From Aphrocallistes beatrix (lineage: Eukaryota; Porifera; Hexactinellida; Sceptrulophora; Aphrocallistidae): a stretch of DNA of 64,000 bases. The position numbers and the translations under genes were made by a program. Within the stretch, counting starts at the first letter, position 1. Each line of letters begins with the position of its first letter. Of this stretch, positions 30,805 to 55,820 are shown piece after piece. The stretch is taken from positions 1,488,001 through 1,552,000 of the forward strand of contig OY725491.1 in assembly GCA_963281255.1 (NCBI GenBank), written 5' to 3'. The notes below the pieces were generated by a model. The model ran no database searches and was not told the origin of the DNA. It saw nothing but the letters and a program-made list of their open reading frames with translations.

Positions 30805-30812
30805 TATATAAA
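30805..30812 (+). promoter_or_regulatory. TATA box, array gene 1
   Basis: TATATAAA 69 bp before the ATG at 30874; the leader is A-rich (repeated aaataaa). Confidence 0.6.
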
Positions 30813-30873
30813 TGCGGAAATATCGGAAAACTACATCAAATAAATAAATAAACAAATAAAAATAAAAATAAAA

Positions 30874-31302
30874 ATGGAAGAGGTAATAACTAAATTCGGA
30901 TTGAAAAAGTCGAGCGGGCAACAGGAAGAAAAGTACAGATGTTTTTTAGTTAAAATAAAAGAAAAATACCGGATTCTTGATCAAGATACAGAAATATATC
31001 AACACAAAGAAGAGAATGAATGGTTTGTAATATACAAAAAAAATCGTGTCCGGATAGGAACCAAAGAATATTGGGCGATGACTGAATGTGAAACAGGTAT
31101 TAAGAAACCAACCAAGTCCAGTGAGCAGTTTAAACTAGTATGGAGTAGAAAAGAATGTGGAGATAAGGACATTCCATATGCGATGGATGGATATGAAAAT
31201 CAGTTTATCTGTCCAAAACACTTTGAATCCAGGATTTTATGTGAATGCAATGAAGTCTCTTTGCAGGAGGACTTGTCGGAACTTGTGTGTGAAGATATCT
31301 AA
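30874..31302 (+). CDS. Array gene 1, unrecognised small protein, divergent
   Basis: 142 aa, intronless, TATA-driven. I do not recognise the protein. Residues 20-75 carry the core shared with the six genes downstream: KYRCF, then IYQHK, then a hydrophobic strand and YKKNRVRI (others read CFENGVRI). It is the most diverged member: the C-terminal coiled coil is replaced by a Cys- and acid-rich stretch (QFICPKHFESRILCEC). No signal peptide or membrane segment. A broken relative lies 1 kb upstream. The ATG follows an A-rich leader and is the first ATG after the TATA box. Expressed status is inferred from the intact frame and promoter only. Confidence 0.65.
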   Translation: MEEVITKFGLKKSSGQQEEKYRCFLVKIKEKYRILDQDTEIYQHKEENEWFVIYKKNRVRIGTKEYWAMTECETGIKKPTKSSEQFKLVWSRKECGDKDIPYAMDGYENQFICPKHFESRILCECNEVSLQEDLSELVCEDI

Positions 31303-32469
31303 CAAATGGATCAATGAAGATCACAGTAGAAAAAGCAAATTATATTTCACTTGTATATAAATGTATCTGTACAAATATCCAACACTAATCTATTTTTAAA
31401 TGCTCTATGTGATATTAATATGGTTTTTATTAATTTCAAATCTTCCCCTGCAAGTATGTAAAGTAGGATCGGGATCAGGATCGGATCGAAACTTTTACTG
31501 AATTCGATCCGATCCTTTTTCTTTTTAATCCCCAAGTTGGAGGTGAAAGTGTTGAAATATGTTGATTAAATATATTTTTTAATGTGTTTTATGGTTTGAA
31601 TACTAACTTAAGCACCAAGTACGCCCCAGGCTGCCGCAGACGGACGGACATTGCACGTCGTCCATGCCATAAGGCATCTCCTTCCAGGAGCTGTACTAAA
31701 ATGATAGTCCTCTGACTATTTTTGAAAGGATCTTTTTGGGGATCGTGATCGGATCGAAGATCCTTCTATAAGTTAGGATCGGGATCTGGATATAGATCCT
31801 TTTTTTGAGGATCGACTAATGCCCTAGAGATTATATTATAATATAATCTCCAAGTTTGAATTAGTAATTATTATTATATTATTATAATAATATACTAAGA
31901 TGATAAGCGGATAGGGAAATATTCAGATAACTAAATGCCTCGATTTATAAAAAGCAGGGATGCGTTAAGATTGCGCCTGTATAACTTGCAAGTATAACGA
32001 AAAACCTGAATTATTATGCAATGAAGTAATTTCAAAAAAAATTGTATAGGAAAATACAGGTATAAATATTTGATGAGTAATAGCATGTCTGCTAATTATA
32101 CAGCTTCTGTGACAAAAAAATCCAACTAATAATAATACCAAAACCATTGTCAGTGTGTAAAACTAAGCTTATCATTAGGCTTAGATTAACTGTATCTTAT
32201 TTGATTAAAATAATCATTATCATTTATATATAAATTAATGAATATCTCTTCAAAATGGAGGAGACATCTAGGTCGATAAACCGTCCAAAATAATTGGAAC
32301 ACACTATACTGATAACTCGACACAAGTGGCAATCACTGGTATTAAAAATTGATATACAGGAGTTTCCCCAGACACCCAGTACAATCCTACTGCAGCTCAC
32401 ACTGATACACATGTAATTAGGAGAATCGAAATTGTTCTGATTGATGTATTGAATGTATATATCTAAAAC

Positions 32470-32529
32470 CTCTATTTTCTATTTGGAGATTTGGATCTAT
32501 CCATCCAAATCTCAAAATAGAAAATAGAG
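32470..32529. repeat. Near-perfect inverted repeat
   Basis: Left arm CTCTATTTTCTATTT then GGAGATTTGGAT; right arm ATCCAAATCTC then AAATAGAAAATAGAG; about 27 bp per arm with few mismatches. No function assigned. Confidence 0.65.
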
Positions 32530-32614
32530 ATTTGAGACATAAAAATATGTTCCATAAAAGATTTCAATTAACACCATATCACAAGCTTCAAAACTGTATC
32601 TCTATATCTATATA

Positions 32615-33062
32615 CACCAACCGGACAAAAGTATTTCAACACTTATTCTTTCCCATACAAATAATACTAAATTGGATTTTTTCACGAAGGGCAATACGTT
32701 CAAATTCTAAGAGATACTAAAAATCTGATTTCAGATTCGAAATCTATACATTCGAATTAGTTATGGTTGAACATAATTAATAAATTACTCAACTCAATGA
32801 ACAATCTTATCAGCCTGAGCCACCATAGGTAATTCATTGCCATCATGTATAGTGGTCAAAATGGGTGTATGTGGCATAAGGTGGCACTGATTGACAATTT
32901 AAAATTAACCTGTGGCTAATTTGAATGCGTATTATTCGAATCTGGAATCCGATTAGCTGTATCCCATACCGTTTAGAAGTAAACTTCTTCATGAATAGAC
33001 CCATTTTAGTATTATTTGTATGGGAAAGAATCAAGTGTTGAAATACTTTTGTCCCCTTGGTG
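32615..33062. repeat. mariner-like MITE with TA target duplication
   Basis: Inverted ends CACCAACCGGACAAAAGTAT and CACCAAGGGGACAAAAGTAT (the latter on the minus strand), flanked by TA. Relative of 5760-6260. Confidence 0.75.
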
Positions 33063-33193
33063 TATATCTACTTGTATATATCTATATACGTATCTGTATA
33101 TCTGTATAGTATGTATAAATATAGATAATATTATTGTGCATTTTAATTAGAATTTGATGGCCCAGAATACTCAGATATCAAGTCGAGAATATA

Positions 33194-33200
33194 TATATAA
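33194..33200 (+). promoter_or_regulatory. TATA box, array gene 2
   Basis: TATATAA (end of a longer TA run) 72 bp before the ATG at 33266. Confidence 0.5.
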
Positions 33201-33265
33201 GTAGCAATAGTAGCAATAATAGCAATAAGCAATAAAATAAAGAATCCGACCAAACAAAAAAAATT

Positions 33266-33862
33266 ATGAATAACATGGATAATCGCAAGGAAGATATTGC
33301 AAGGGATCTACAACTTGTCGTTCACAAGAAACAGGAAGCGAGAAACAGAACATTCTTGTTCATTGGAGCTCACAATCAGATTCCAAGAGAACATGGAAAA
33401 CTCGTAAAAGTATATAAACATAAACTTATGAGAAATTGCTTTGTTTTATGTTATAAAAATGGCGTCAGACTGGCCAAAAGTTATCAAAAGAAAAAATTTT
33501 TAAGTATTGAGAACAGATTTCTAAAACATGCATTCATTTCGTGCGAATACGATCCAAGCATCAACACAGAACCATTTGAATTCGCAGGATTCAATCACAG
33601 AATGATGGGCTGTGCCAGTCAGTGCAATTACTCTAGCCATAGCATTGATCTTCATGGAAGTGAGAAAAATTCGCAAATATATCAAAGTCGATATGTAGAT
33701 GAATATCAAGGCGTACAGACTAGAGAAGATTTAGAAATTGATACATTGGGATCAATTTGTCAAATGCAGAAAGAGAAAGCAATGTTACTTGACGAAAAAG
33801 AAAAGCTACTCCAGGAAATACAATACTATCAACAGCTTACATTCAACTGTTACATAGATTAA
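33266..33862 (+). CDS. Array gene 2, unrecognised small coiled-coil protein
   Basis: 198 aa, the longest member, intronless. Core at about residues 27-75: RNRTFLFIGA, KVYKHKLMRNCFVLCYKNGV, RLAK. Between core and C-terminus is an insertion of about 60 residues (SCEYDPSINTEPFEF, GCASQCNYSSHS) not seen in the others. The C-terminal part (QMQKEKAMLLDEKEKLLQEI) is a heptad-like coiled coil. No signal peptide or membrane segment. Function unknown; the core looks beta-rich, which is only an inference. Confidence 0.75.
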   Translation: MNNMDNRKEDIARDLQLVVHKKQEARNRTFLFIGAHNQIPREHGKLVKVYKHKLMRNCFVLCYKNGVRLAKSYQKKKFLSIENRFLKHAFISCEYDPSINTEPFEFAGFNHRMMGCASQCNYSSHSIDLHGSEKNSQIYQSRYVDEYQGVQTREDLEIDTLGSICQMQKEKAMLLDEKEKLLQEIQYYQQLTFNCYID

Positions 33863-34675
33863 CCAAGAATTGACATATGTTTTGTGAGAATTCAGTTTGA
33901 CAATTGATTGAACACAAACAAATAAGCTGAATGAAGTTTTAACAGAACAACTTTCCCCCTTAAAGATGCACACATCTGCACCAGAGTTCATATTCTGATA
34001 ATGAGAAATTCCATTATCAGTGAGGGCATGTTTTGAGCAATTATAAATTATTTCAAATTTCTTAGAACTATTAATTAAACTTTTACAAATGTATTTGTGA
34101 TCATTTGATAAACTTTTCAAAAACTTGAGGCAGAGATCAATATTAGCCGACAGAAATTTTAACACGTCTCAAGAACCGGTATTGTACTACGTATAAAGTA
34201 CATAAATGTTTCTTGGTTCGGACTATTGTATAACCGATTATTCATTTTAGAAGAAAAGTTTAATCCAGGCAAAATAATTGATTAGAAATCAGCAACTTTT
34301 AGTCGTTAAAATAAGTGTATGTAGGTAGGGGAATTCATGCGATGAGAGTGAATTTAGGTAGCCGTTTAATAAAAGTTGACGTAATATTTTAGAAAAATTA
34401 CTGTCACTTGAATTCGGAATTTCCAAAACATTTTAATGATGTATTCAAATTCCTAAATATAATTATATGCATCAGTTAGAGCTGTACTTATATTATATAT
34501 TGAATTAGCACACATAAATCCTTGATGGACTGATCGTATGATCGTTCTATTTAAAGATATGGGAATACATACATTCATAATGTGTACTTGTAATATTATA
34601 TCTTATTAATGTTACATTCATTTCAGTTAGCTAATTGCTTCCATGTAAAAATCTATTTTGCAGAAACACCATGGA

Positions 34676-34719
34676 ATACAGCATTACTATCAAATCATTA
34701 TTTGATAGTAATGCTGTAT
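34676..34719. repeat. 20-bp perfect inverted repeat
   Basis: ATACAGCATTACTATCAAAT and its exact complement around catt. Confidence 0.75.
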
Positions 34720-35227
34720 ATCAGGTCTGCCCAACATCTGTCGATACCCATTCGGGATACAGACAAATGACTACAGGACAAATGGGTACATAGACTGTCT
34801 GTAGCCATTTGTCTGTATCCCACCCATTCACACTTCCTTTGATATTTTTCTGGAGGAGGAATCTTTCCACTATCTCTACGGAGTGTGAATTATCAATAGG
34901 ATATATCTTCATTATCCAAATAACGATGCTAGTTGTTACATTTCTTCGACTGAATTGCCATATTTAAAATAATCGGGATGGCAAGAGAAAAATAAGTATA
35001 AAATATAAATCCTTTTCGATTTGGGTCATGAACGAAATGAGTTAGGCAGCTCTGCTGTATTTTCATTTTTATTTCTTTATTTGGCAAGTCTGATATACGT
35101 ACGTGATATGTCAGCACGTATTTATTGAACATTTACTTAATTTGTATTTTAAATTAAAAGATTTAATAGAGGGGTTTCACTATCTGGAACAGAGTGACCA
35201 TGGGTCTGTGGGTCAATAGGTCATGGG

Positions 35228-35491
35228 CATAGGCGTCGGATCCACCCGGCCACCCGGCATGGGCCGAGCGGCCCTAAGGGGCTGCCCGGCTCTACCGGCA
35301 TCGTCGATTATGGGCCAGATAGGCCCGGAGGGCCTATCTGGCTGGGTAAAAGCTTACCCGATACATTCCCAAAGTCCTAGAACCGTGTATCAGGCAGTAT
35401 TATGTATTATGCCGTGAATGTAGCGGCCCCGGAATCGATTGGGCCGACCCCGGAGCCTTCGGGCCGGGCGGGCCCATTTCCGACGCCTATG
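35228..35491. repeat. hAT-type MITE (CATAGGCGTCGG family)
   Basis: 264 bp, ends CATAGGCGTCGGATCC and TTCCGACGCCTATG, flanked by exact 8-bp duplications gtcatggg (35220-35227, 35492-35499). Second copy of 20219-20511. Confidence 0.88.
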
Positions 35492-35906
35492 GTCATGGGG
35501 AACACATGGATGATGGGTCACAGTAAGTGACCCATGACCTACACTGCTGTAAATTAAATTTTACACAAAAGCACATCATCATTTTTCTAAAGTTAATCAT
35601 TAAAAAGTGTATCTCTCATTGTGCCAACAATAATTTTTGTAGTATACGATGTTTTTAGACTTATTTAAGGAATATTACCATTGGAAGTTGTTGGGGTTTT
35701 ATCAATATGTATTGTGCAGCTCAAAATATTATGATCTAAACAGTGATTTTAATTAAGTCATGAAAAAATATAGCTTAACAAATTTTAAATGATTTTCAAA
35801 TAGGTTACCAGAATTGAGTGAGTAGGGAGTTTAAAGAATGTGTAGCCTATTCAAAAAATTCACATTTGTGTCAAGATTTAATATTATTCTTAAGTGTTGG
35901 ATTAAC

Positions 35907-35914
35907 TATATAAA
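35907..35914 (+). promoter_or_regulatory. TATA box, array gene 3
   Basis: TATATAAA 107 bp before the ATG at 36014; the longest TATA-ATG distance in the array. Confidence 0.5.
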
Positions 35915-36013
35915 CGATAAAAAAATTGTAAATAAAAAAGTATTTACATCTGAAAGATCAATCTAAACAGAACACAATTTAAGTTTGCATCAAATAACTG
36001 AGAATTCGTCGGA

Positions 36014-36430
36014 ATGATAAAATCAATTAGTGTTGAAAAGCATCGCAACTTCCTATACAAAGGAAGCTATGAGCGGATATCTAAGTTCAGAGGAATGGAT
36101 CCTGAAAGGATATATGAAGACAAGAACCAATCAGATAGCTTCGTGTTGTGTTACAAGAATGGGAGGAGAATAAACAAAAACAAAAACAATCTGATGCCGA
36201 TTCATAAGAAAAACATTGACTCTTCCTTCCAACTACTCAAAGAGTCGGACTCCATGGAAGAACAAATATACAAACTGAAGAAAGTAAGGGATGATTTGAT
36301 TAAATTGAAATTCAATCTTGTAAAAGAAATTCAAGGCTATCGTAGTATACAAGATCTACAATCAGCTGGTAATCAAATTACTCCAAATGCATCAATAAAT
36401 ACGGCAAGATTTTCAAAAGAGAAGTATTAA
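36014..36430 (+). CDS. Array gene 3, unrecognised small coiled-coil protein
   Basis: 138 aa, intronless. Core in residues 10-60: HRNFLYKGSYERISKFRGM, RIYEDK, FVLCYKNGRRINK. C-terminal coiled coil (QIYKLKKVRDDLIKLKFNLV) ending at EIQGY, the same word that ends the coiled coil in other members (EIQYY, EIREY, EIQRY). The N-terminus is shorter than in its neighbours. No signal or membrane segment. Function unknown. Confidence 0.75.
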   Translation: MIKSISVEKHRNFLYKGSYERISKFRGMDPERIYEDKNQSDSFVLCYKNGRRINKNKNNLMPIHKKNIDSSFQLLKESDSMEEQIYKLKKVRDDLIKLKFNLVKEIQGYRSIQDLQSAGNQITPNASINTARFSKEKY

Positions 36431-36762
36431 CATATGGTTCCTGCTGTTTTAACTTACTAGTAGAATAATAATAACATAAGTTGCTATTTTGTTCTTGTAC
36501 TCTATTATTTTCAGCAGCCTTTAGTATAGTATTTTAAAATAGGTCTAGTATAAGCTCTAATTTATTATCATAGAGATGGTCTTCAAATAAGATTCAAATC
36601 ATACTCAACATAATACCTCACAGTAGACTGAAAATTACTACTTGGGATGAGGTAATAGCCGATTGAAATAATATATTATTAAGTCGAAAATCGTTAACCA
36701 TGCAGAATAGACCTTAAGAATTTTTACCAGTATGTATAAACATGATGTCAGAATACATTCAT

Positions 36763-37821
36763 CCATAGCCTACTCTAATAATGCCTCATAGTAAAATAAC
36801 CAAGGATGCGGTAATAGCCGAATGGATTAATACACAATTAGTCTAAAATCGTTAACCATGCTGAATAAGCATTAAGAATGTATTACCAGCATATATAAAC
36901 ATGATGTCAGAGTACATATATCCGTTGGAAAAATTTCGATTAGTCATCATATCGTTGCGCAACAGGTCATTTTAAGCACGATTTTGGCAATTTTCTAAGC
37001 TGTTTTAAGCCTACTTCTAAATGTTATTAAGGTAGAATTTTTGTGTAGAACCAAGATTAGTACGAGTTGATTTGAAAAATTTAGAATTTTTCAATGGAAT
37101 GTTGTAACATTCCTACGTTGCTATGGTAAAGCATTTTGATCAGTTTGAGCCATATCCTGCAAACTGTAAGAACTAGGTCTTCAAATTTGATCGTATTTGA
37201 TAGGCAATTGGCTACTTTCTATTAGGCAATAATACAATTTAAACTTCTAAATTAACAGATTATAGAGTTATGCGACAATTTAGTGTTTTGGTCACATTCT
37301 TAAAATCAACCCATAACTCAAAACTCGTTGAATTTAGAAGTTCAAGTTGTATTATCACCTAATAGGAAGTAGTCCATTGCCTATCAAACACGATCAAATT
37401 TGAAGACCTAGTTCTTACAGTTTGCAGGGTATGGCACAAACTGATCAAAATGCTTTACCATAGCAACGTAGGAATGTAGCAACATTCCATTGAAAAATTC
37501 TAAATTTTTCAAATCAACTCGTACTAATCTTGGTTCTACACAAAAATTACACCTTAATACCATTTAGAAATAGGGTTAAAACAGCTTAGAAAATTGCCAA
37601 AATCGTGCTTAAAATGACCTGTTGCGCAATGATATGATGACTAATCGAAATTTTGACAACGGATATATATATATACTTTGATGCCATGTTTATAGATGGT
37701 AATATATTCTTAAGGTCAATTCTACATGGTTAATGATTTTAAGCTGATCGTGTATTAATCCATTCGGCTATTACTGCATCCTTGGTTATTTTACTGAGGC
37801 ATTATATTGAGTAGGCTATGG
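36763..37821. repeat. Foldback element 1
   Basis: About 1.06 kb whose two halves are reverse complements almost to the centre (near 37,280). Ends CCATAGCCTACTC and GAGTAGGCTATGG. Shares the inner motif gcgcaacaggtca/cgttgcgcaa and its termini with foldbacks at 52318-53611 and 57102-58203. No coding capacity. Confidence 0.8.
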
Positions 37822-38502
37822 ATTAATAATGCATGCGTATAGTATTTCCAATCAAAAATTATTATAAACACGTGCTTTCTATAAATACTTTTATGTATAA
37901 AAACATTAATCACCAACCTTGTACACACACTAAAGGCGTACATTTTAAGATTCAAATCAGTACAAATCAGCAAAAAGCGACTCCCAAATGGCCCTGAAGT
38001 TAGAGCTAACATTGCAAGTTGTCAATTCAAAGTATAATTGTCTAGGAAAATACTTTTCGAAAAGTTCTATTAAAATACATATAGAAAGTACAATGAATGA
38101 TTAATATTGAAATTTTGGCCACGATATTATTAACTCAGGCTATATTATCAGAAATTATCAAATTACAATTATTCACCATATATAGTAATAATCTATTGAA
38201 AGTAATTGTAGTCTAGTTCTTGTAAAGTAAATGATTACACTTAGCAAGCTAAGCCCTGGCCTAAAATATTTTGCTATCCATTTCACAATACCAAGTAAAC
38301 CTGAAGTAACACTGTATAGTAAATACTGTATCTATTATCTCTTTATCGACCTGAATTCATTCATTTCCGTTTTATTGGATAAAACGTGTTTAGATGTTTC
38401 TCATCGGTTAAGCAGATTTACCATTTAATATATATCTCAAAACGATTCAATTCTACATAATTTGATTGACAGAGTAACTTCTGGGTTGGAGAGGATTGGA
38501 TA

Positions 38503-38814
38503 TCAACTGAAGCCTCTTTGTGGGGTAGCCGGGTGATGTCGAGAGCTGTTATTGTGAATGGTACGCCGTTTTCCGAGATACCTCTTCTGAGAAGAGAGAG
38601 TGGATTGCCTATCCTGATCTGAGCCTGGCATTACTTGACGAGTTTGATATTGTTCTTGCCATGCATCCTTGGAAACCGAATAGGACACGTCATCGAGACT
38701 GGAGGTACGTGACCTGTAAGGGTTAGGCATAGCAAGTATCGCATCGTACGGACGGAACATAAGTGCAAACTTGCGTTTTGTAATGCCAGCGTACAGAGGA
38801 TGATTGATAGAGGC
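38503..38814 (-). CDS. Possible terminal exon or fragment of a rhodopsin-like GPCR
   Basis: A minus-strand acceptor (gatatccttcag) opens an in-frame 103-codon exon. It starts ASINHPLYAGITKRKFAL, which resembles the end of helix 7 and helix 8 of class A receptors (NPxxY, then basic residues and a Phe), though the motif is N-H-P-L-Y, not canonical. A hydrophilic Ser/Arg-rich tail follows (YRSRTSSLDDVSYSVSKD), like a receptor cytoplasmic tail. Its base composition is less AT-rich than the flanks. I found no upstream exons in the window; it could be a stranded exon, pseudogene piece, or end of a gene with very long introns. Confidence 0.35.
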   Translation of the reverse strand, partial: ASINHPLYAGITKRKFALMFRPYDAILAMPNPYRSRTSSLDDVSYSVSKDAWQEQYQTRQVMPGSDQDRQSTLSSQKRYLGKRRTIHNNSSRHHPATPQRGFS

Positions 38815-38859
38815 CTGAAGGATATCCCGCAGGTACTCGGGTTGTAATCGATGTTAGGT

Positions 38860-39000
38860 TACTCAATCCAGCCTATTTTGGGAATTTGTTTACTTTATAT
38901 AAATATTGTAAACAAAAGTAAACAAATAATTTATCATATTGATCTGAAAATATAATAAGGACAAACACACAAAAAAATCCTAGCGTTTTAATATATAAGA
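38860..39000. repeat. Fragment of GC-cored repeat, second type
   Basis: Matches the tandem unit of 10720-11485 (taaacaaaagtaaacaaata) and ends atcctagcgttttaatata like that family. Confidence 0.5.
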
Positions 39001-39447: not shown

Positions 39448-39455
39448 TATAAAAG
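39448..39455 (+). promoter_or_regulatory. TATA box, array gene 4
   Basis: TATAAAAG 46 bp before the ATG at 39494. The open frame extends through it, so position relative to the TATA box decides the start. Confidence 0.6.
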
Positions 39456-39493
39456 GATCTGTTACTGATGAAATATCAACAAACACTATTTCA

Positions 39494-39961
39494 ATGAATT
39501 CGAAATATCAAATGCAAAATAGAAGAGAAAGTCTTGTCTCTTTCAAGGAAAAGAATAAGAGGAAGTTCCGAACTTTCATATACAAAGGTGATTATGCAAG
39601 GATAGAATGTATTAAAGGAAAGGTTTCAAAAATATACAGACACATCACTTATGAAAATGTTTTTGGACTCCTCTTCGAGAATGCAATAAGAATCGACAAA
39701 AATAACAGAGATCCATCTTTCCAAATCGAACCTGTTCAATTCAAAGATTTGAAACGTTCCTTCAAGCTGTTAAAAAAATTTGAAACTATGGAAGAATTCG
39801 AACTATGTGATATGCTAATAGAAAGAAATAAGCTGGCGTTCGAGAAAAGAAAACTCGAAGAAGAAATCAGAGAATATGCAATGCCTAGCACTTACAGCTT
39901 AGGGTCAGGACCATCATACCCTTCAAAACAATCAATATTTGAGTCTTTCAGAGGAAAATAG
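39494..39961 (+). CDS. Array gene 4, unrecognised small coiled-coil protein
   Basis: 155 aa from the ATG at 39494 (the frame is open 18 codons further 5' but has no ATG there and includes the TATA box). Core: RKFRTFIYKGDYARIECIKG, SKIYRHITYENVFGLLFENA, IRIDKNNRDPSFQIEP. C-terminal coiled coil LAFEKRKLEEEIREY. Lys/Arg-rich N-terminus. AATAAA about 70 bp past the stop. Function unknown; a textbook member of the array family. Confidence 0.78.
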   Translation: MNSKYQMQNRRESLVSFKEKNKRKFRTFIYKGDYARIECIKGKVSKIYRHITYENVFGLLFENAIRIDKNNRDPSFQIEPVQFKDLKRSFKLLKKFETMEEFELCDMLIERNKLAFEKRKLEEEIREYAMPSTYSLGSGPSYPSKQSIFESFRGK

Positions 39962-40659: not shown

Positions 40660-40865
40660 TATTACTTTTTTTTTCAAATTTTCTTTGAAGACTTGTAATC
40701 ATTTAAATCAGAGCATTATTAAAAGAGCGGAAACCAACGCAACGCTCCTATATAAAAATGAACTTACTTGGCTCGGGAAAATATGTATATTGGCGGAGAT
40801 TATAAATAAATGCAGTTTGTTAAACTTTATCAAAAGGATGCTTATGCCAGATAAGTGTGATTATC

Positions 40866-42216: not shown

Positions 42217-42389
42217 GGTAATGCGGAAATGGTTCGACTTTTCGAAAAAGGAAATAGTTCGAATTACGGATTTAGGAAATAGTTCCGACTTTTTATCATT
42301 AGGATTAATGGTGGGTTTTTTTCGAACTATTTCCTTTTTTGGAAAGTCGAACTATTTCCGGTTTTGGTTCGAACTATTTCCACCATACC
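42217..42389. repeat. Mutator-like MITE, copy 1
   Basis: 173 bp. Ends GGTAATGCGGAAATGGTTCG and, inverted, GGTATGGTGGAAATAGTTCG; flanked by exact 9-bp duplications agtgcaacc (42208-42216, 42390-42398), the length typical of MULEs. The interior is built from ggaaatagttcga in both orientations. Copy 2, reversed, is at 44188-44337. Confidence 0.8.
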
Positions 42390-43424: not shown

Positions 43425-43432
43425 TATATAAA
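43425..43432 (+). promoter_or_regulatory. TATA box, array gene 5
   Basis: TATATAAA 66 bp before the ATG at 43491; the leader is almost pure A with few C and G. Confidence 0.65.
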
Positions 43433-43490: not shown

Positions 43491-43934
43491 ATGGAATTGA
43501 ACTATACAGCATCAATACAAGACAAAAAACAAATTAACACCTCTAAGAGCGGAGATGTTACAAAGAAATTTCGTTGTTTCAGGTTTCACGGAGATTTCGC
43601 AAAGATACAATTTTTCCCAGGTCAGATTTCGAAAATCTACAAGCATAAGGAGCTTCCGAAGGTTTATATTATTTGCTTCGAAAATGCAGTAAGGATAGAC
43701 AAACATAACACCGACCCAACGGTAGATATCGAACCGTTTCATATTAGAGGCAAGACTCAATCTTTCTCGCTCATTGGGGATTTCAACAGTGAACAAGAAA
43801 CATTATTATGCGATTTGGAGATTGAGAAAATACAGTTGATGCGTAAGAAAAAGGAACTTGAAGAAGAAATAACATTTTATCAGGAATCCGGATTCGACCT
43901 ATTCTACAACTTCTGCAACTCTCCTGATCAGTGA
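43491..43934 (+). CDS. Array gene 5, unrecognised small coiled-coil protein
   Basis: 147 aa, intronless. Core: KKFRCFRFHGDFAKIQFFPG, QISKIYKHKELPKVYIICFE, NAVRIDKHNTDPTVDIEPF. C-terminal coiled coil IEKIQLMRKKKELEEEITFY. Closest by eye to genes 4 and 6. First ATG after a TATA box and an A-rich leader; AATAAA about 170 bp past the stop. Flanked by two opposed copies of a Mutator-like MITE. No signal or membrane segment. Function unknown. Confidence 0.8.
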   Translation: MELNYTASIQDKKQINTSKSGDVTKKFRCFRFHGDFAKIQFFPGQISKIYKHKELPKVYIICFENAVRIDKHNTDPTVDIEPFHIRGKTQSFSLIGDFNSEQETLLCDLEIEKIQLMRKKKELEEEITFYQESGFDLFYNFCNSPDQ

Positions 43935-44187: not shown

Positions 44188-44337
44188 GGTATGGTGGAAA
44201 TAGTTCGACTTTCCAAAAAAGGAAATAGTTCGAAAAAACCACCCATTAATCCTAATGATAAAAAGTCGAACTATTTCCTAAATCCGCAATTCGAACTATT
44301 TCCTTTTTCGAAAAGTCGAGCCATTTCCGCATTACCA
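44188..44337. repeat. Mutator-like MITE, copy 2 (reversed)
   Basis: Starts GGTATGGTGGAAATAGTTCG and ends CCATTTCCGCATTACC, the reverse of copy 1 at 42217-42389. Flanks are A runs, so the duplication cannot be read. Confidence 0.75.
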
Positions 44338-44948: not shown

Positions 44949-46292
44949 CAGGGTGTTTCATAAGTCGTGGCCAAAAATTTTTTTATATCAATAGTTGTTT
45001 TTCTAATGGACCATGAGCATTACTATTTCACATTATGCTGCTTTACTGCGGTATTACAATCCCTCTATTTTCAACCATTATTTCGTTTATATTATTTCCT
45101 GTTACTTTTTTTTTTGATAATTTGTACCTTTTGTTCATTTTTTCAAAATGAATGTGTCTGACTACGGGTTAGCCATGCGTTCTAAGGCAATCGGGATGAT
45201 AGAATCAGGATTACCTAAAAAAGAGGTAGCCAAGAGGCTTAATGTTGGATATCGTTCGGTTCGAAGATGGTCACAATCCAATAATTCGGGAGTTTCACTG
45301 GAAATCAAGGGGCGGTCTGGACGTCCGCCGATTTTAGACCGTGTGAGCAAAATTGTTATTGCTAAATCTCTCGGCAAACGACTCCAGTCAACGAGGAAAA
45401 TCGCGAAGAAACTGCGAGGAAAAGGCTACACTATTTCTCCAACTACTGTTTATAGGCATTTGAAGGACCATATCGGTGCGAGGTCGTACAAACGTCCAAA
45501 AAGGCCACGGATTACCGACAGGATCAAAGAGAAACGACTCTCTTTCGCCCTAGCCCATCAGCATTGGACTGTTGATGATTGGAAAAAGGTTTTGTGGTCG
45601 GATGAGTCCCCCTTTGAGTTGTTTGCATCCCCGAATCCACAAAATGACCGCGTTTGGGACAAAACCAGCGAAAGATTAGAGCCTGTCTTCAAAGTGAAAT
45701 TTCCAGCGAAGGTCATGGTATGGGGTATGATGTCCCATTCTGCTGTTTCGGAACTGCACATAGTCCCTCAAAAGCAAACTGTAAATGGTGCTTACTATCG
45801 GGATCATATTTTAAAGAGGACCTGTGTTGATGCAATTCGAAGAAAGCGTAAAACAGGTGGTATTTGTGAGAGGGCTATGCTACAGAACATGTCAAATTTT
45901 CTGTTCATGCAAGACGGTGCACCAGCTCACACTGCTAATTTGACTCAAGCATGGTGTTCAAAGAACTTTCCAAGATTTTGGAAGAAAGGTGAATGGCCAG
46001 GAAATTCTCCCGACCTAAATCCTATCGAAAATCTATGGGCAATTCTTTCAGATAGGCTAGATGAAATGGGACAAATATGCAGAACTGAAGATCTAATTTC
46101 AAGACTCAAAATAGCATGGTCCAGTATCGATCCGAAAATTCTGAACAATTTAGTTGAAGGAATGCCTAAGCGAATTGCGCAGGTTATAGAGAGTAATGGT
46201 GATTATATTCATAAATAATACAATCTATTCGTGCACAATTTTCGTTTATTTTCTTTGATTTTGGTAGTGGCCACGACTTATGAAACACCCTG
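44949..46292 (+). mobile_element. Complete Tc1/mariner transposon, DD37E type
   Basis: 1,344 bp. Terminal inverted repeats identical over the first 25 bp (start CAGGGTGTTTCATAAGTCGT), flanked by TA on both sides (44947-44948, 46293-46294). It contains one intact transposase frame. Identical ends and an unbroken frame suggest recent insertion. Confidence 0.95.
45148..46218 (+). CDS. Tc1/mariner transposase, DD37E
   Basis: 356 aa, intact, cut-and-paste transposase. N-terminal paired-like HTH (residues 5-60, EVAKRLNVGYRSVRRW), second HTH (about 70-120, STRKIAKKL, TVYRHLKD), then the DDE domain: Asp152 in WSDESPF, Asp256 in FMQDGAPAH, Glu294 in SPDLNPIENLW. The last two are 37 residues apart, so DD37E, not the DD34E of classical Tc1. 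A GRSGRPP motif, like the GRPR hook, lies near residue 56. It sits inside matched 25-bp inverted repeats. The ATG is the first after the left end; there are no introns. Confidence 0.95.
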   Translation: MNVSDYGLAMRSKAIGMIESGLPKKEVAKRLNVGYRSVRRWSQSNNSGVSLEIKGRSGRPPILDRVSKIVIAKSLGKRLQSTRKIAKKLRGKGYTISPTTVYRHLKDHIGARSYKRPKRPRITDRIKEKRLSFALAHQHWTVDDWKKVLWSDESPFELFASPNPQNDRVWDKTSERLEPVFKVKFPAKVMVWGMMSHSAVSELHIVPQKQTVNGAYYRDHILKRTCVDAIRRKRKTGGICERAMLQNMSNFLFMQDGAPAHTANLTQAWCSKNFPRFWKKGEWPGNSPDLNPIENLWAILSDRLDEMGQICRTEDLISRLKIAWSSIDPKILNNLVEGMPKRIAQVIESNGDYIHK

Positions 46293-46563: not shown

Positions 46564-46945
46564 AGTCAACTCATACCAACTACCAACTCGTCCAAAAGCA
46601 CTAAGTCAACTTGCCCCACTTAGTAAAGTCAACTCGTACCATTATCAAAATGAAATGTACGATTTCGATAGCATTTTGGAAGAGATATCTGTAAGAACAC
46701 AGCGAAAAGAAGGATTTTCTATTGGCTTGGACGAATTGGTATGTGGTATGAGTTGGTATGTGGTACGAGTTGGTATGTGGTATGAGTTGGTATGTGGTAC
46801 GAGTTGGCATGTGGTACGAGTTGGTATGTGGTACGAGTTGGTATGTGGTATGAGTTGGTATGTGGTACGAGTTGGCATGTGGTACGAGTTGGTATGTGGT
46901 ACGAGTTGGCATGTGGTACGAGTTGGTATGTGGTACGAGTTGACT
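46564..46945. repeat. Inverted-ended element carrying a 17-bp minisatellite
   Basis: Ends AGTCAACTCATACCAAC and GGTACGAGTTGACT. From 46735 to 46938 there are 12 tandem copies of a 17-bp unit (gttggtatgtggtacga, with c/t and a/g variants). The unit is a copy of the element's own right end, so the array grew from the terminus. Confidence 0.85.
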
Positions 46946-47816: not shown

Positions 47817-48098
47817 AAGTTGACTAATTCATTAAAAAATGGCAAAGAATTATGAATTATAACGAATAATTCATAATTCAAGCATGAATTAGCCATTCAT
47901 AAGCTAAGTTGACTAATTCATGAATTAATGAATAATTCGAATAATTCATAATTCCTGAAATATGAATTATTCGAATAATTCATAAATATAATTCAGTATA
48001 TTTTCTTGCAAAAAACTTTGAATTTTGAATAATTCTTCTCAGGCTTGATGAATTATGAATTATTCGAATTATTCATTAAGTCGTGAATTAGTCAACTT
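47817..48098. repeat. AT-rich MITE
   Basis: Ends AAGTTGACTAATTCA and TGAATTAGTCAACTT (with small mismatches). The interior is dense in gaattatt and aataattc, so it can fold on itself in many ways. Confidence 0.65.
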
Positions 48099-48245
48099 AG
48101 GGGTATACAAACCACTACTCAAAAATAAAAATAAGCTTAATTAAATAACCACGAAACATTAATAGACTTGAAATACAAAGTCTTGTACTTCAAGTGCACG
48201 TATTTTGTCTAAATTAGAAGTATCTGAGTATATTAATTAATAATT

Positions 48246-48366
48246 ATCCCTTAAATTACCTGGGGTCATTTCTATTTATAGCAAAGACCCCACACTTCTA
48301 AGGTTTCCCCGCCCAAAATGACTTAACCGGAAATGAGTTAGCAAAAATATAGTGCCATTTAAAGGT
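48246..48366. repeat. MITE-like repeat with CCTTAAAT ends, copy 2
   Basis: Reverse-oriented relative of 15583-15690: cccttaaattacctggggtc, ctatttatag, ccccgcccaaaatg, cttaaccggaaatgag. Confidence 0.55.
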
Positions 48367-49015
48367 TATGAGCAAAATGCTGTCAGCTACCAGGGGGCTT
48401 ATAGCGCCCTCGGATCCCCAGCTAGGTGTTGTGACCCTCCCACTATTAGAAAATCTTGGCTACACCAGTGTAGCTATGCATGTAGTATGTATGCATAATC
48501 TTCACATCTTTGTTGGCGTTTTAATGGAGCTGCACTATCGGTCTATAGACAGACATTCTAAGTTTTAAAGGATTAGCCGGTTATCGGACAATTGATGTCA
48601 GATATTCTGATCCAGTCAGAGTAGACCCGCACAGCTACACAGGTGCGCAAAATATCGGTGAAATATTTACTGATAGTATTAAGCGTTTGTAAAAATAAGA
48701 TGCGATCAATGATACACAAGCTCTGTTGGAAAAGGCGAAGCTGGGACTCTCTTAAAAACTCGTGTTTAATAATAAAACCCGATGAAATCATTCTTAAATC
48801 AATTATCCGGAATTGGAGATATTTCGAGTTGAATAATTGCCATTAGTATTAAGATGGTTTGGCAAGAAAAATAAATGCAAATCATAATTCACCCGAATTA
48901 CTGTTGTATATAATAATCCCTTAAAAAGTTCATTTTGGCTCAGAAAACATCCACAGTAGTCAGTATATAGATTGGAAACGAGGCAAAAAATGAAAGCATG
49001 CACACGTGTAGAATG

Positions 49016-49023
49016 TATAAAAG
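49016..49023 (+). promoter_or_regulatory. TATA box, array gene 6
   Basis: TATAAAAG 40 bp before the ATG at 49056. Confidence 0.6.
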
Positions 49024-49055
49024 TGAGAAATATATGAAAGCATTATTTGAGTTCA

Positions 49056-49463
49056 ATGGCACAGTTGCTAATAAGAAGAAATACAAATCGAGATATGAAG
49101 AAGAAAGTCAACAAAAAATTTCGAAATTTTGTATTCAGAGGGGATTTTAAAAAGATACGAGAATTCAGGGGGACCATTTCAAAAATCTATAAGCACAAAA
49201 TCATTCAAAATTTGTTCATTCTGTGCTTTGAAAATGGAGTGAGAATCAGCAAAAAAAACACAGACCCCTCACTACGGCTCGAACCATTTCACATGAAATA
49301 TTTGAACCGCTCTTTCGAACTCGTTGAAAGTGATGAAGACATTAAAGAAGCTAATCTATGCGAATTAGAGAGAACGAAGGGAAGGTTACTTCAGATTATT
49401 TCAGAACTAGAAGCAGAAATACAGAGATATCCAACTCCCTACTCTCTATACAACAACGAATAG
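49056..49463 (+). CDS. Array gene 6, unrecognised small coiled-coil protein
   Basis: 135 aa from the first ATG. Basic N-terminus (RRNTNRDMKKKVNKK), core NFVFRGDFKKIREFRG, TISKIYKHKIIQNLFILCFE, NGVRISKKNTDPSLRLEPF, RSFELV. C-terminal coiled coil LERTKGRLLQIISELEAEIQ ending at RY. AATAAA about 140 bp past the stop. The best-conserved member with gene 5. No signal or membrane segment. Function unknown. Confidence 0.8.
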   Translation: MAQLLIRRNTNRDMKKKVNKKFRNFVFRGDFKKIREFRGTISKIYKHKIIQNLFILCFENGVRISKKNTDPSLRLEPFHMKYLNRSFELVESDEDIKEANLCELERTKGRLLQIISELEAEIQRYPTPYSLYNNE

Positions 49464-49759
49464 TCATTATCCAAAAAAAATTCATACAGACAGAGAGATA
49501 AACAACTCAGGTTGACTTAAATAATCAAATGTATAATATCGATAAAAAAATGTACTTTTACCTATATTTAATTTGCATCGTAAATGTTGTAACATAATTG
49601 TAAAATAAAATGTATATATTTACTTGATGGTCGAGGATCATCGTAAAATCACAGTTCAATTGTCGTAATAGTCTCTCCAAAGTAGAAACTAGAGTAGAAA
49701 CAAAGTAGAAAAATAAAAAACCCAGAGCCTGCAGACCTCAAACTTTTGATGCTATAACT

Positions 49760-49918
49760 CAGCGCCGGTGCCACGGTTTTAGAAGTGGCCCTGTTTTACC
49801 TAACCAACCGGGCCACTATTAAAAAGTGGTCCGGTCTACCATGACAAACCTGGGGCCACTTTTGAAAAGTGGTCCAGGCAAACCGTACCAACCGGACCAG
49901 TGGCGCCGGCCCTGTAGC
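49760..49918. repeat. CAGCGCCGGTGCCAC MITE, copy 2
   Basis: Ends CAGCGCCGGTGCCACGG and GTGGCGCCGGCCCTG with repeated accggaccac words; copy of 21496-21621. No clear target duplication. Confidence 0.65.
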
Positions 49919-51414
49919 TTTACACTTACACACCATTCTAGCTTCTCTGTAGTCTGTAGGAGGTCCATTGATTCACAAGAGTTAACAAGAGAACCCCGAT
50001 TAGAGTTTAGTAAGTTAGAATGTACAATTTAGCTTTCACAGAGGGCAATTCTTGACGGAGCCGCCATGAATTTTTGCACCCCTCCTCCTCCTCTTCCAAA
50101 CTACCAATATACCCCTGGTGGGGCTGTGAGGAACACTCTTTCATGCGACAAAGCTAATCCTCCATCTTGCTTGCATAGAAACAATGTTAAGGATAATTAC
50201 TTTAAAATGCTAGTCGTAAGACTTCTGTGCAATCAGCATAATTTTGCTTCAATGATAATTTGTAATCTAATCAACAGTAATTAAAGGATTAAGGTATCAA
50301 TTCTTGCGTATTAATTAAAGAGGATATGAATGATGGCATCCACTTAAAGCCACAATCTATATAGTGTTTCTAAATGATGACTAGAGTCTTAAAGGCGGTG
50401 TGGTTGAGTACAAATCTTTATTGTACTATATTTTAATTATACAGTGAAACCTGCTAATAACGAACTGGCCAAAATGACCATTATGTACAGGTGGCGTTAT
50501 ATAGTAGAGTGGCCATTATTGCAGGTTCCACCATATTTTAATATGCTACGATTATACGGAATGTGCAATATGTTAATTCATTTCCAAATAAATTGAAATT
50601 AAAATTGTAATTTTTCCTCAATAAACTTCGTAAATGAATATAGGCCAATACAAAATAATACAAAAGGACAATGAAGGAAATATCATTAAAATTTAAAAAA
50701 AGTTTCAATTAAAACGATTGAAAAGGGTTTAATTAAAATAACAGAATAATTATATGCCGCTGACTCTAGCGATAATAACACAGCTTTTCAGTGGAGAATG
50801 CTATCCATTTCAGACCGATTTGGCAGCATTTAGGGTAGAGATATGGCTCTCAGGTTGTCGAACGGGATATTTACTAGCAGGGAGGGTGGCTGTCGCGGTT
50901 TTTAAGTTAGGAAATAGAGCCTAAAAACCCGGAACTCACGAGTTTTTGGCAAGCGGCATTGTCACTCAGCGTCATACAAGTATTCTGTAAATTAAGATTC
51001 AAGTCTAAATCGTTTGATCTCCTACGTACGTACATAGGGCATACCTAAACTAAATTTCAAGTGCCTTCAAAATAGCTACGTAAGATTAGTTGAAATATTC
51101 ATCATAGTCAAGAGTTCAGTGCAAGTCTGAACCCTTCTAAATCATTTCTCTACAAAAGTCTAAGCATTCGCTTTTGTAATTTGATCATAATCTACTATTA
51201 ACTGGAATATGATACAAGAAAATCTATTTCAGATCTTGTTTACATTAAATTGTTTACATAATGTTACATTATGAAATGGAACTATGAAAAATAGTCCACA
51301 AAATAATAATAAAAACATTTAAAAAAAGACAAACTTTCAAAACTTGTGTACTTTGGAAATTAGCATTTACGTGTAAGTGAAAAATAATGTCTAGGCAATA
51401 ATTCGAAAGACATG

Positions 51415-51875
51415 CACTGCCTGGCCAAAAGTATTGGAACACCACATTGCTTTGCATTATAAGTATTACTAAAATGGGTCTATCCATGGAAGCCAATTCA
51501 TTAAAATTACGGCAGCTGCTGAAATTCTGACATCAAATTCGAAATCTACACACTCAGAGTTACACAGTTTAGAAGATTTTTATTCATCTTTATGCCAAAG
51601 GATAATTAATATCGCTTGTGCCACCTTGATCCATTTGTTCTCATATAATGGTCATAACAAGTGGCAAGTGGCACAAGGTGATACAGGTACTAGTAATTAC
51701 GCTTTGGAAAGTATTATCTATAGGAAGTTTCTAGATTGATTTATTCGAGTGTGTATATTTCGAAATTGATGTTAGATTTCATTAACTCTGGTGGTTAGTT
51801 AATTGATTGGAGTCCATAGATAGACCCATTTTCTGCAAAGCAAAATAGTGTTCCAATACTTTTGGCCAGGCAGTG
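51415..51875. repeat. mariner-like MITE, third copy
   Basis: Inverted ends CACTGCCTGGCCAAAAGTAT are identical over about 28 bp. TA follows the right end but not the left. Interior resembles 5760-6260. Confidence 0.75.
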
Positions 51876-52317
51876 TACTAATCATAAAAAATAAATCATT
51901 CAGATTTAGGGAAGCAAGGCGTGAAAAAGTGGTGGTGTTAGTGAAACTGGCTCATTATTTTTCGATTTTTTTTTTGTTTTGAAGAATTTTTAGGACTGAC
52001 AGAATAATATTAGCAAAATTTTAAATTAATGACTACATCAGTAGAAATAGATATGTTTTAACTCAATCATTAGCCATTCATTGTCAAAACACTTCTTCAA
52101 CCAAATGCTCAATTTTGAAAGTGACTCTCAATGATATGCATCGTATAGTGTGAAATAGTATAGGTCCAAGGTTGATAAATAAGAGCCGATGAAGAATCAG
52201 ATATGCAGTATCATAAGCTACTACGTATATACTAACTTATCAGGGATATGTGAATGAGTATTATTGTATTAACACATGAATAACGGTAAGTTATTAACCA
52301 TACAGAATAGCTTTAAG

Positions 52318-53611
52318 CATAGCCTACTTTACTCAGGCCAGACAGTAGAATGGTAAATTTGGACCAGGGATGCGGTCGAAGTCATTCGAATAAATACAGT
52401 ATAAGCCTAAAATCGTTAAGCATGCAGAATAATCCTTAAGAATGTATTATCAGCATTTATAAATATGGTGTTAAAGTACTCATATCCATTTCCAAATTTT
52501 TGATTAGTCATCACATAATCGCGCAATAGGTTATATTGATGACGCATTTTGTGATTTTCATTTGTCAGAATTATCCTAGTTGTCACTTGTCAGAATATTT
52601 TTTAGGACTGCTGTCACTTGTCAGAATGGTTTTTAGGAATGGCGGATGTTTCATCGCCGGATGTTTCGTCACCGATATTTCTTTGAATGAAATTATTGAA
52701 TCCCCACTTTCATTCTCCCATTCATTCTACCAAATAATAAATGACAATCACCCACCCCCTCACGAAATAAAAATACCACTCTCGCGTGCCATTTTATATT
52801 ATTTCAAACTCAAAATGCCCACTTTCTCTTTGGTCATATACAAAATATACTCGAAAATGCCCACTCTCACTCTCCTATCAATTCTATTCAGCTTTAGAAT
52901 AAATTCGTATTTCCCAACAGTTTGTAATTCCAATCTAAAATATCAGCGACGAAACATCCGCCATTCCTTAAAAACCATTCTGACAAATTACAGCAGTCCT
53001 AAAAACCATTCTGACAAGTGACAGCAGTCCTAAAAACCATTCTGACAAGTGACAGCAGCCCTAAAAACCATTCTGACAAGTGACAGCAGTCCTAAAACCA
53101 TTCTGACAAGTGACAGCAGCCCTAAAAACCATTCTGACAAGTGACAGCAGTCCTAAAACCATTCTGACAAGTGACAGCAGCCCTAAAAACCATTCTGACA
53201 AGTGACAGCAGTCCTAAAACCATTCTGACAAGTGACAGCAGTCTTAAAAAACATTCTGACAAGTGACAGCAGTCCTAAAACCATTCTGACAAGTGACAGC
53301 TATGATAATTCTGACAAATGACAACCTCAAAATTCTGACAAATGCAACTTCCCCCTTAAAACGGATCTGAAAATCACAAAATTCGTCATCAATATAACCT
53401 ATTCCGCGATTATATGATGACTAATAAAAAATTTGGAAATGGATACGAGTACTTTAACACCATATTTATATATGCTGATAATTCATTCTTAAGGTCTATT
53501 CTGCATGCTTAACGATTTTAGGCTTATACTGTATTTATTCGAATGACTTCGACCGCATCCCTGGTTCAAATTTACCATTCTAATGTCTAGCCTGAGTAAA
53601 GTAGGCTATGC
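52318..53611. repeat. Foldback element 2 with internal satellite
   Basis: 1.29 kb, ends GCATAGCCTACTTTACTCAG and its inverse. Long arms pair until about 52,640. From about 52969 to 53301 the right half holds about 12 tandem copies of a 30-32 bp unit (ccattctgacaagtgacagc). The left arm has only two or three inverted copies. Shares the motif gcgcaataggtta with the other foldbacks. Confidence 0.8.
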
Positions 53612-55301
53612 CTTGTATTACAAGCAGAGAGAGCCTCGTTAATATGAACATGGATAATACGAAACACAAAATTTGCAATTCTCTGAACTATTTTAAATAT
53701 TTGTACACCATTAAGCGATAATTATTTATGTGATTTTCACATACATACGTATAACCAAGTTTAGGAAGGATTGATTCGAAAGGTAATGATGTTGTTAAAT
53801 TCCTGCAAATGATATGGAAAAGCATTCTGGTCAATTTACACAGCATTTTGTGACTTTTGTGAATTCCTTTGATTATACCAACTATTTGAAAATGTTTAGT
53901 ATGGATGACTTTACAATATTATGCGAATTTTATCATGATGACGTCGTGATAAGCCTGAAAAAAATACCAAAATTCACCCAAAAAGATAAACAAATTTCGT
54001 CAGTTAAACTTTGAATCCAACAAAACACTTCTATTAATAGTATTTCCGTTGGGATTATTTCGACTGAGAAAGGTGAGCCAGTCAGGACAAATTTTCCATT
54101 ATAATATCACGTAGTGTTGTTATAATGAGAAATACCTAAGCTAATATTGAAAGAGACAACACATCAAGTATAGTAGTAGTGAAAGTACGGGGTTCTATTG
54201 TAGTATATTTAGACTCTAAAACACAATAAAAACTTTTGTCTTAAAGATTAATAAAATAGCAATTAGGAGAATTATCAGTATAGTTAGTCCGTAGGTTGTA
54301 AACATCATTATATCATAACAAGATAAGAAATGGAATTTATGATGGAAAGGTAGTACATTATAAATGTATTCAGCTAAATGAAACGCACAATACATTGTTT
54401 GACAATTGTGCACACATCAATATAGAAGTCAGGGATGCTAACTCAATTCAATCGACAAGATGCTCGATTGTTGATTGCTTCGGTTTGTACTGATTTGATT
54501 GCAATCGGGGATATTCGTCGATTTTGCGATTACCGCAGAATTTAACAGAAATTAACTTCATGAAGCTGAGGCTAAAGAATATGGGGACGTGTCTGCCACA
54601 CTATTACTCACAAAATATTATTGTCTCCCAAAATTCAGGTTCTGTGACTGGCAGCTAACAAATAAATTGAAATCTAACAAATTTCGTAAGAAAAATAGAA
54701 ATTTATTTCTACTCTTAACCTAGGATTCGTACAAAGAATTGGATAAACTGACTAAGTGGCGATCGCAAAATATCATACAGCTTAATTTGCTAAAAATCGG
54801 AATGATAAATTTCGTAGAATCGAGGAGACAAAGTTCATGTTATATGACCATATCTCGACAAAGAACTAAGAATTTCTAGAAGCTATGAATAAAACTGCTG
54901 TTACCATGACAAAAATGAAACAGAAAACAAGAAACTGGGTTAAAATTATTTAGAAAAGATGATTTTAATCACATTCAAAGCTATGGTTACTAAATCAGAC
55001 AGTTTTCTGTTAGAATAATTCGAAAAATGCAAAGTAATAAGATCTATAAACTATTTTAAAAGTTCAAATACGGCAAACCGTTTCATATATAAGTTTCTAC
55101 TGGAATTCTAATTGCGGTATAACAATATGTAAATTCGTGAATTAAACAAGTAAGAAAAGTGCTTGGTAACAAGTAATATGAACAATGGAATAAGCAAGAC
55201 CAAGACACAAGACATGGTCAGAGCTAATATCAATTCAGTTTGTAGTTTCCAAAATAGATCCGTAAAATTTAATTTCAGTATTAATGGACACAAATATTCC
55301 A

Positions 55302-55309
55302 TATATAAA
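55302..55309 (+). promoter_or_regulatory. TATA box, array gene 7
   Basis: TATATAAA 54 bp before the ATG at 55356. An earlier ATG at 55284 lies upstream of it. A second TATATAAG is near 55087. Confidence 0.5.
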
Positions 55310-55355
55310 CAAATTTAATCTAAGTTCCAAACAAAAAAATCAGAATAAGATTAAT

Positions 55356-55820
55356 ATGGATTCGTTTTCAGATGTAATGATAGCACAACATTATAAATGC
55401 ACTCCACAAAAGGAAACATCCGACAAACACAGGAACTTTTTAATATTCGGAGAAGTAAACACAAGCCACATTCAAAGTAGAACAATATACAAACATTGTT
55501 CTGAAAATTGTTACATAGCCTGCTATAAGAATGGAGTTAGAATTGATAAAAATAATGAAAATGAGAGAATAATCAGAATTAAAAAGATTATACCATCAGA
55601 GTTTGTAGAGATGTGTGAAGAACAGTTTACCTCGAAAGAAGCAAATACACTTCGATGTAGGAGGGAGATGAAGCATGCTTCATGCATGGAGAAGAAAGAA
55701 AGACATATGGAGAGGGAGATACGCGAAATGGAGAGAGAAAGGAGGAATTTATACGCAGAGAAACTAGCTCTTATAAGGGAGATAGAAATAATTGAAATAA
55801 AATGTAATCTTCTACAGTGA
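55356..55820 (+). CDS. Array gene 7, unrecognised small coiled-coil protein
   Basis: 154 aa from the ATG at 55356; an in-frame ATG at 55284 would add 24 residues, but the TATA box then falls inside the gene, and the spacing in the other members favours 55356. Core is diverged: KHRNFLIFGEVNTSHIQ, TIYKHCSENCYIACYKNGVR, IDKNNEN. The C-terminal half is a long charged helix (ERHMEREIREMERERRNLYA), longer than in the others. No signal or membrane segment. Function unknown. Confidence 0.72.
   Translation: MDSFSDVMIAQHYKCTPQKETSDKHRNFLIFGEVNTSHIQSRTIYKHCSENCYIACYKNGVRIDKNNENERIIRIKKIIPSEFVEMCEEQFTSKEANTLRCRREMKHASCMEKKERHMEREIREMERERRNLYAEKLALIREIEIIEIKCNLLQ

Follow-up and report, generated by a model that had tools for sequence, protein, structure and literature searches.

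The stretch of DNA analyzed here, referred to as the window, comprises 64,000 nucleotides of the genome of the glass sponge Aphrocallistes beatrix (bases 1488001-1552000 of contig 4) and contains an array of seven genes for small proteins that share a conserved N-terminal core, followed in six of them by a coiled coil. Features of the window are given in window positions, and places elsewhere in the genome, which was searched as 100.5 Mb in 28 contigs, carry the contig number after the letter C. The original prediction, made from the letters of the window, had described seven intronless frames on the plus strand. All seven are present and open, with no internal stops:

Member 1: 30874-31302, plus strand, 142 amino acids (aa); diverged core, without zipper
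Member 2: 33266-33862, plus strand, 198 aa; core, insert and zipper (residues 152-194 were used alone as the zipper query)
Member 3: 36014-36430, plus strand, 138 aa; core and zipper
Member 4: 39494-39961, plus strand, 155 aa; core and zipper
Member 5: 43491-43934, plus strand, 147 aa; core and zipper (AlphaFold model 2)
Member 6: 49056-49463, plus strand, 135 aa; core and zipper (AlphaFold model 1)
Member 7: 55284-55820, plus strand, 178 aa, or 154 aa from an inner ATG at 55356; core and zipper

The genes are single open frames as described, and their unspliced state is read from the frames alone. Single-frame structure by itself says little, because one-exon genes are common in glass sponges; 12,409 single-exon transcripts and 19,578 genes were reported for Aphrocallistes vastus, together with tandem, largely single-exon families (PMC10282587). 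Unlike the present array, a single-exon cluster of that species encodes AIG1 domains (PMC10282587). The other two forward frames of each array gene are interrupted by 6 to 16 stops, and base shuffling, done 1000 times per gene, never left a frame open.

To avoid circularity, a profile hidden Markov model (HMM) was built from six of them at a time and searched against 2057 six-frame fragments of the window. The held-out protein was recognized in every case, with E values for members 1-7 of 2e-5, 1.5e-19, 2.3e-16, 1.2e-34, 1.4e-34, 1.2e-33 and 1e-12, and the best non-member among these fragments was never better than E 0.36. This mutual recognition of all seven proteins (E 2e-5 to 1e-34) bears out the proposal that the array is one family; identities to member 5 are 24-44%. 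Member 1 is the weakest member, lacking both the coil and the G(D/S) motif, and the whole-genome search with it matched only itself within the array. Upstream of member 1, a decayed 3' fragment of 101 bases (29799..29899, plus strand) is 76% identical in DNA to the end of that gene over 104 columns, which shows that copies have been both gained and lost in the array.

Among members 2-7, third codon positions differ by 0.50-0.67, near saturation, and second positions by 0.40-0.51. Divergence at third positions exceeds that at second positions in all 15 pairs and that at first positions in 14 of them, the exception being members 6 and 7 (0.61 at first versus 0.60 at third positions). Synonymous changes are present at residues that are invariant across members 2-7. 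Because third positions are near saturation, no ratio of nonsynonymous to synonymous change is given.

The genes had also been described as TATA-driven, and a TATA box was found upstream of each, provided that the last gene starts at its inner ATG (distances are relative to the start codon):

Member 1: 30805..30811, plus strand, TATATAA, at -69
Member 2: 33194..33200, plus strand, TATATAA, at -72
Member 3: 35907..35913, plus strand, TATATAA, at -107
Member 4: 39448..39454, plus strand, TATAAAA, at -46
Member 5: 43425..43431, plus strand, TATATAA, at -66
Member 6: 49016..49022, plus strand, TATAAAA, at -40
Member 7, if its start is 55356: 55302..55308, plus strand, TATATAA, at -54

With the longer form of member 7, a TATAWAW lying wholly within -110..-34 is present in six of the seven genes, compared to 10.9% of random nearby positions (p 1e-5); with the 55356 start it is present in all seven. 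The array is a real, protein-coding, TATA-associated gene family.

The most conserved part of these proteins is the core. In the alignment of the seven members, the invariant residues (R, F, Y, N and R, counted by eye) all lie within it, and its net charge (K+R minus D+E) ranges from +2 to +10 in all seven. The ordered motifs of the original prediction hold in their order and as a loose consensus, although exact matches occur in only two to five of the members: (K/R)(F/H)RxF in five, G(D/S)(F/Y) in four, IY(K/R)HK in two, (C/L)(F/Y)(E/K)NGVRI in two and DP(S/T)...EP in four. That the core belongs to no recognized family also agrees with the searches, in which neither a clear hit to a known family nor a credible match was obtained in Pfam, PDB sequences, PHROGs or viral contigs. 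In Pfam, members 2, 4 and 7 matched only unrelated models below cut-off (E 0.016 and worse), and the four remaining members matched nothing. A profile search of PDB sequences found coils alone (E 0.08 and worse), and single-protein searches of the same set found nothing for member 2 (E up to 1) or for the relative on contig 11 described below (E up to 10). In PHROGs, nine weak families each matched a single member (best E 8e-4); a scan of viral contigs yielded 65 stretches with the pattern and no confirmed relative, and BFVD yielded nothing under 0.001.

Two AlphaFold models, of members 6 and 5, predict a beta-alpha-beta-beta fold for the core, with mean predicted local distance difference test (pLDDT) scores of 71.5 and 74.8, and no significant structural match was found for this predicted fold. 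In both models a long helix of 32 residues follows the core. The earlier suggestion of an oligomeric binding protein with a beta-rich core and a coiled coil is consistent with these models, in which the predicted core is mixed alpha/beta and precedes the long helix. It might be asked whether the core is an RNA-recognition motif (RRM) or another ferredoxin-like RNA-binding domain, in which case the proteins would be zipper-dimerized RNA-binding proteins. We regard this as quite improbable; in a Pfam scan at E up to 1, neither the seven members nor the relative on contig 11 matched an RRM family. The core would best be described as a putative lineage-specific alpha/beta domain without credible relatives in the libraries searched.

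With each of the seven members as query, the whole genome was searched at E up to 10, or 0.001 in one case, and 11 places outside the array matched: seven small frames resembling basic leucine zipper (bZIP) proteins, one relative of the core and three places with no evident relation, as judged by eye. The core relative is a 164 aa frame on the minus strand of another contig (C11:676486-676977), so that the core is not confined to the array in which it had been noticed. This gene carries RKF, GSY, IYRHK, the hydrophobic strand and its N, and has a TATA box at -58. The HMM of the seven members, in whose training it was not included, scored it at E 1.4e-7 among 2058 sequences, a value to be discounted roughly a thousandfold by our estimate, since the gene was picked from the whole genome. 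After this discount, its sequence is still that of a credible relative of the core. In the genome, the IY(K/R)HK pattern at the DNA level occurs at 107 places compared to 170 for a backward control and is no signal by itself, and the family HMM found no further member in 20 regions that contain 22 of these places. At C6:5497723, a frame (L030) that by eye looks like part of the core was rejected, its HMM E value being 1.2.

The C-terminal coil had been described as ending in EIxxY. The coil is present in six of the seven members and the exact ending in five; member 7 reads EIEII, and member 1 has no coil. It is also not a featureless coil. In the same six members it is a heptad leucine zipper, and it resembles the zipper of tiny Maf-like bZIPs encoded elsewhere in this genome. 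Of the seven bZIP-like frames matched by the array, two score 31.3 and 27.9 bits with the Pfam model bZIP_Maf, above its cut-off of 22. Another two encode the same 143 aa protein, which reaches 20.5 bits with bZIP_2 (cut-off 22.3; one copy scanned). The other three are supported by an HMM of the genome's own bZIPs (E 4e-11, 9e-9 and a weak 0.004); two of these three were scanned with Pfam, which gave a weak bZIP_2 line (E 0.71) for one and nothing for the other. The identical 143 aa protein is encoded twice at a distance of 2.1 kb, at C13:3929363 and 3931463 (L025 and L026).

The zipper of member 2, searched by itself against the whole genome, matched eight places. These are two frames over the bZIP_Maf cut-off, both copies of the duplicated protein, a place that overlaps the list of PF03131 matches below its cut-off (C1:1274851), a weak bZIP-like frame (C13:228586), C13:232004, which was not read, and C8:4178779. 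The last belongs to a cluster of three related bZIP-like frames (C8:4175200, 4178650 and 4189484), and a search with the C8 frame matched six places outside the cluster, four of them in the PF03131 list over its cut-off (best E 0.0011). Read by eye, the C8 frame looks like a bZIP of the Maf type whose basic region has decayed; over 35 columns, its zipper shares 51% identity with the zipper of member 2.

The bZIP set to which these matches lead is itself large. The bZIP_Maf model (PF03131) has at least 109 matches in the genome at E up to 1, at least 93 of them over the curated cut-off, and for 99 of the 109 the open frame has fewer than 200 aa. Clusters occur at C1:9149571-9169331, C7:1003800-1013406, C8:20689-26951 and C15:2591934-2616012. 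The best 30 of the 109 matches represent 29 distinct proteins, 25 of them 97-179 aa long, and among these 30 an apparent Maf-type extended homology region, basic region and zipper are found in one frame. One of the tiny bZIPs (L066) matches the PDB chains of MafG (5.5e-6), Nrf2 and MafB. A survey of 49 eukaryotic genomes places 12 bZIPs in the ancestral metazoan and 16 in the ancestral eumetazoan (PMC4736632). In its passages on bZIP, leucine zipper, Maf and transcription factor, the A. vastus paper mentions a single upregulated bZIP and describes no expansion of the family (PMC10282587). Searches of open-licence papers aimed at such an expansion listed none with a report of one in its title or abstract opening. 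This multiplication of tiny Maf-like bZIP genes is a larger surprise than the array.

The array and the bZIP-like genes share a promoter layout. With the first ATG taken as the start and one duplicate protein dropped, 30 of the 34 bZIP-like genes read have a TATA box in the same position, compared to 8.9% of random positions in their loci. Only 2 of 14 ordinary genes, hand-picked from the loci read, with names and starts assigned by eye and one TATA-less transposase excluded, have a close TATA box (one-sided p 0.003 for the array versus ordinary genes; p 2e-6 for bZIP-like versus ordinary genes). The array genes are probably transcribed from sharp TATA promoters like those of the tiny bZIP genes.

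The resemblance of the zippers was examined with an HMM of 29 Pfam-selected bZIPs of the genome, which contained no array sequence and was searched against the 2057 window fragments. It ranked members 7, 2, 5 and 3 first to fourth (E 6.4e-4, 1.3e-3, 0.021 and 0.086), ahead of the best non-member at E 0.12. In its zipper-only version the top three ranks were taken by members 7, 2 and 5 (E 0.0064, 0.011 and 0.28). A position matrix made from 23 non-redundant bZIP zippers and applied to the six array zippers gave a positive score only in phase (+74); sliding by heptads gave -16, -32 and -54.

On these grounds we tentatively favor, at somewhat less than even confidence, the reading that the array encodes a lineage-specific core joined to a bZIP-type zipper without a basic region, and that the proteins may dimerize with the tiny Maf-like factors, thereby blocking or redirecting them. 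Its main rivals are an unrelated coil that arose by convergence and a new DNA-binding domain in the place of the basic region. Several results weigh against the favored reading. The bZIP HMM scored members 4 and 6 poorly (E 1.8 and 3.4), and with the zipper-only HMM members 4, 3 and 6 (E 3.7, 15 and 29) fell among chance fragments. When columns were permuted within heptad classes, 1775 of 100000 permutations reached the observed zipper score; the signal beyond that of a generic zipper is thus modest to moderate. The preponderance of bZIP-like frames among the outside matches is an argument and not a measured rate. No common trace of a basic region was found in the six zipper members, so that descent from a bZIP would rest on the zipper alone. 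Finally, no zipper was seen in member 1 or in the core gene on contig 11, and because both carry the core without it, the core must have some role on its own.

The first rival holds that the coil is an ordinary one, that the family is lineage-specific and unrelated to bZIPs, and that the resemblance reflects convergence on heptad leucines. It draws on the permutation result (1.8%), on the missing common basic region, on the half of the zipper members that the bZIP zipper HMM does not set apart from chance fragments, and on the PDB profile search, which at E up to 10 matched coils of many kinds and no bZIP chain by name. Convergence accounts less readily for the promoter layout common to the array and the bZIP genes and for the outside matches, 7 of 11 of which are bZIP-like even though the approximately 100 bZIPs would have to compete there with every other coil of a 100 Mb genome. 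Weighing these points, we consider convergence rather unlikely. A relationship between the array coil and the bZIP-type zipper has moderate support in the sequences and is not proven.

Whether anything of a basic region persists was assessed in the 40 residues before the zipper. Ungapped basic-region scores were negative in six of six members, and only members 4 and 5 scored above their own shuffles (18 and 106 of 5000 shuffles, respectively, reached the score), the remaining four not doing so. In member 7, the HMM alignment had made a retained basic region seem plausible; it was rejected, 1739 of 5000 shuffles reaching its score. Pfam lists no bZIP family for any of the seven members at E up to 1. 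Since the basic region was not found, the members are not filed as bZIPs and, judged from their sequences, are not bZIPs. What they retain is the makeup of a zipper-only inhibitor, namely a predicted dimerization helix with no detected bZIP basic region.

The second rival takes the core to be a new sequence-specific DNA-binding domain that replaces the basic region, which would make the proteins zipper-dimerized transcription factors similar to the homeodomain-leucine zipper (HD-Zip) type. It is consistent with the confinement of the invariant residues to the core, with the positive charge of the core in all seven members, with the zipper helix that follows the core in both AlphaFold models, and with the promoter layout shared with the tiny bZIP genes. 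We consider this reading unlikely.

If a bZIP-type zipper joined to a basic-region-free core is the right description, the array proteins would be small, probably nuclear, zipper proteins, and the zipper may pair them with the tiny Maf-like bZIPs of the genome or with each other. A dimer in which one basic region is missing would be unable to grip the usual two-part DNA site, and for this reason the array proteins might serve as brakes or redirectors of the tiny-bZIP network. The positively charged core could add a second contact, with DNA, RNA or protein. A broader proposal, which we put forward as doubtful, is that these proteins form a new class of zipper regulator, in which an alpha/beta domain stands in for the basic region and which would mix with the approximately 100 tiny Maf-like bZIPs to give a combinatorial code of unusual size.

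The surroundings of the array include the following features:

17537-19537, minus strand: CDT1 gene, with both Pfam CDT1 models over cut-off
36790-37795, 52317-53611 and 57104-58199: long inverted repeats with arms 87-97% complementary, the first two related
45148-46218: open frame, lying between members 5 and 6, for a transposase of the Tc1/mariner type
46731-46942 and 52969-53300: tandemly repeated units of 17 bases and of 31/61 bases

The CDT1 gene and the Tc1-type transposase give the neighborhood an animal-like appearance. It is possible in principle that the array encodes proteins of a mobile element or virus, or domesticated descendants of such proteins. The single-frame genes do sit among transposons, member 5 lies between inverted repeats (pair I9), and members 4 to 6 fall within wider inverted pairs (I5, I10 and I24) whose arms are separated by 15-17 kb. 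However, the repeats around member 5 are two separate elements, at 42217-42389 (173 bases) and 44188-44336 (149 bases), both of them copies of a short palindromic element with GGTA...TACC ends that resembles a miniature inverted-repeat transposable element (MITE). The left copy has a 9-base flanking duplication, AGTGCAACC, and the right one a 7-base duplication, AAAAAAC, within an A-rich stretch. Since each has its own duplication, they are read as separate insertions, and member 5 as the cargo of a transposon was rejected. The wider pairs connect a palindromic repeat at 36.7-37.8 kb to a related one at 52.3-53.6 kb, and these two are likewise read as separate. When the 25 longest of the 46 inverted pairs are considered, only the wider ones span the stretch from member 4 to member 6, and none encloses member 1, 2, 3 or 7. 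The searches of viral contigs, BFVD and PHROGs described above also speak against a viral source. The original prediction had named a transposon-encoded protein as an outcome that would overturn it; the inverted repeats at 43491 proved to be two small insertions, and we judge a mobile or viral origin highly improbable.

If the favored interpretation is correct, this lineage multiplied its Maf-like bZIPs several-fold over the ancestral set (PMC4736632) and attached a new domain to a zipper like theirs that lacks the DNA-gripping part. It would offer a testable case of a dimer network growing activators and brakes side by side, and the array genes are simple enough for expression and in vitro pairing.

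Among known systems, zippers mediate the pairing of CNC proteins with small Mafs, and the resulting dimers compete for related DNA elements (PMC9756947). The array resembles this small Maf/CNC system (MafG, Nrf2) in that its zipper is in the register of the genome's tiny bZIPs, one of which matches both of these proteins; it differs in having no detected extended homology or basic region and, instead, a new N-terminal core. The plant LITTLE ZIPPER microProteins and the artificial A-ZIP proteins are expected to tie up their partners and are not known to carry an extra folded domain. They are like the array proteins in being small and in keeping a zipper while the DNA-binding part is absent (PMC5662769, PMC6003976). 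In contrast, the array proteins, whose blocking role is putative, have the core as their most conserved part. In plant HD-Zip proteins, a homeodomain is linked to a zipper (PMC3988052). The array proteins likewise join a separate domain to a zipper, but no member matches a Pfam homeodomain at E up to 1. The novelty of the array would lie in the core domain and in the way it is joined to a bZIP-type zipper.

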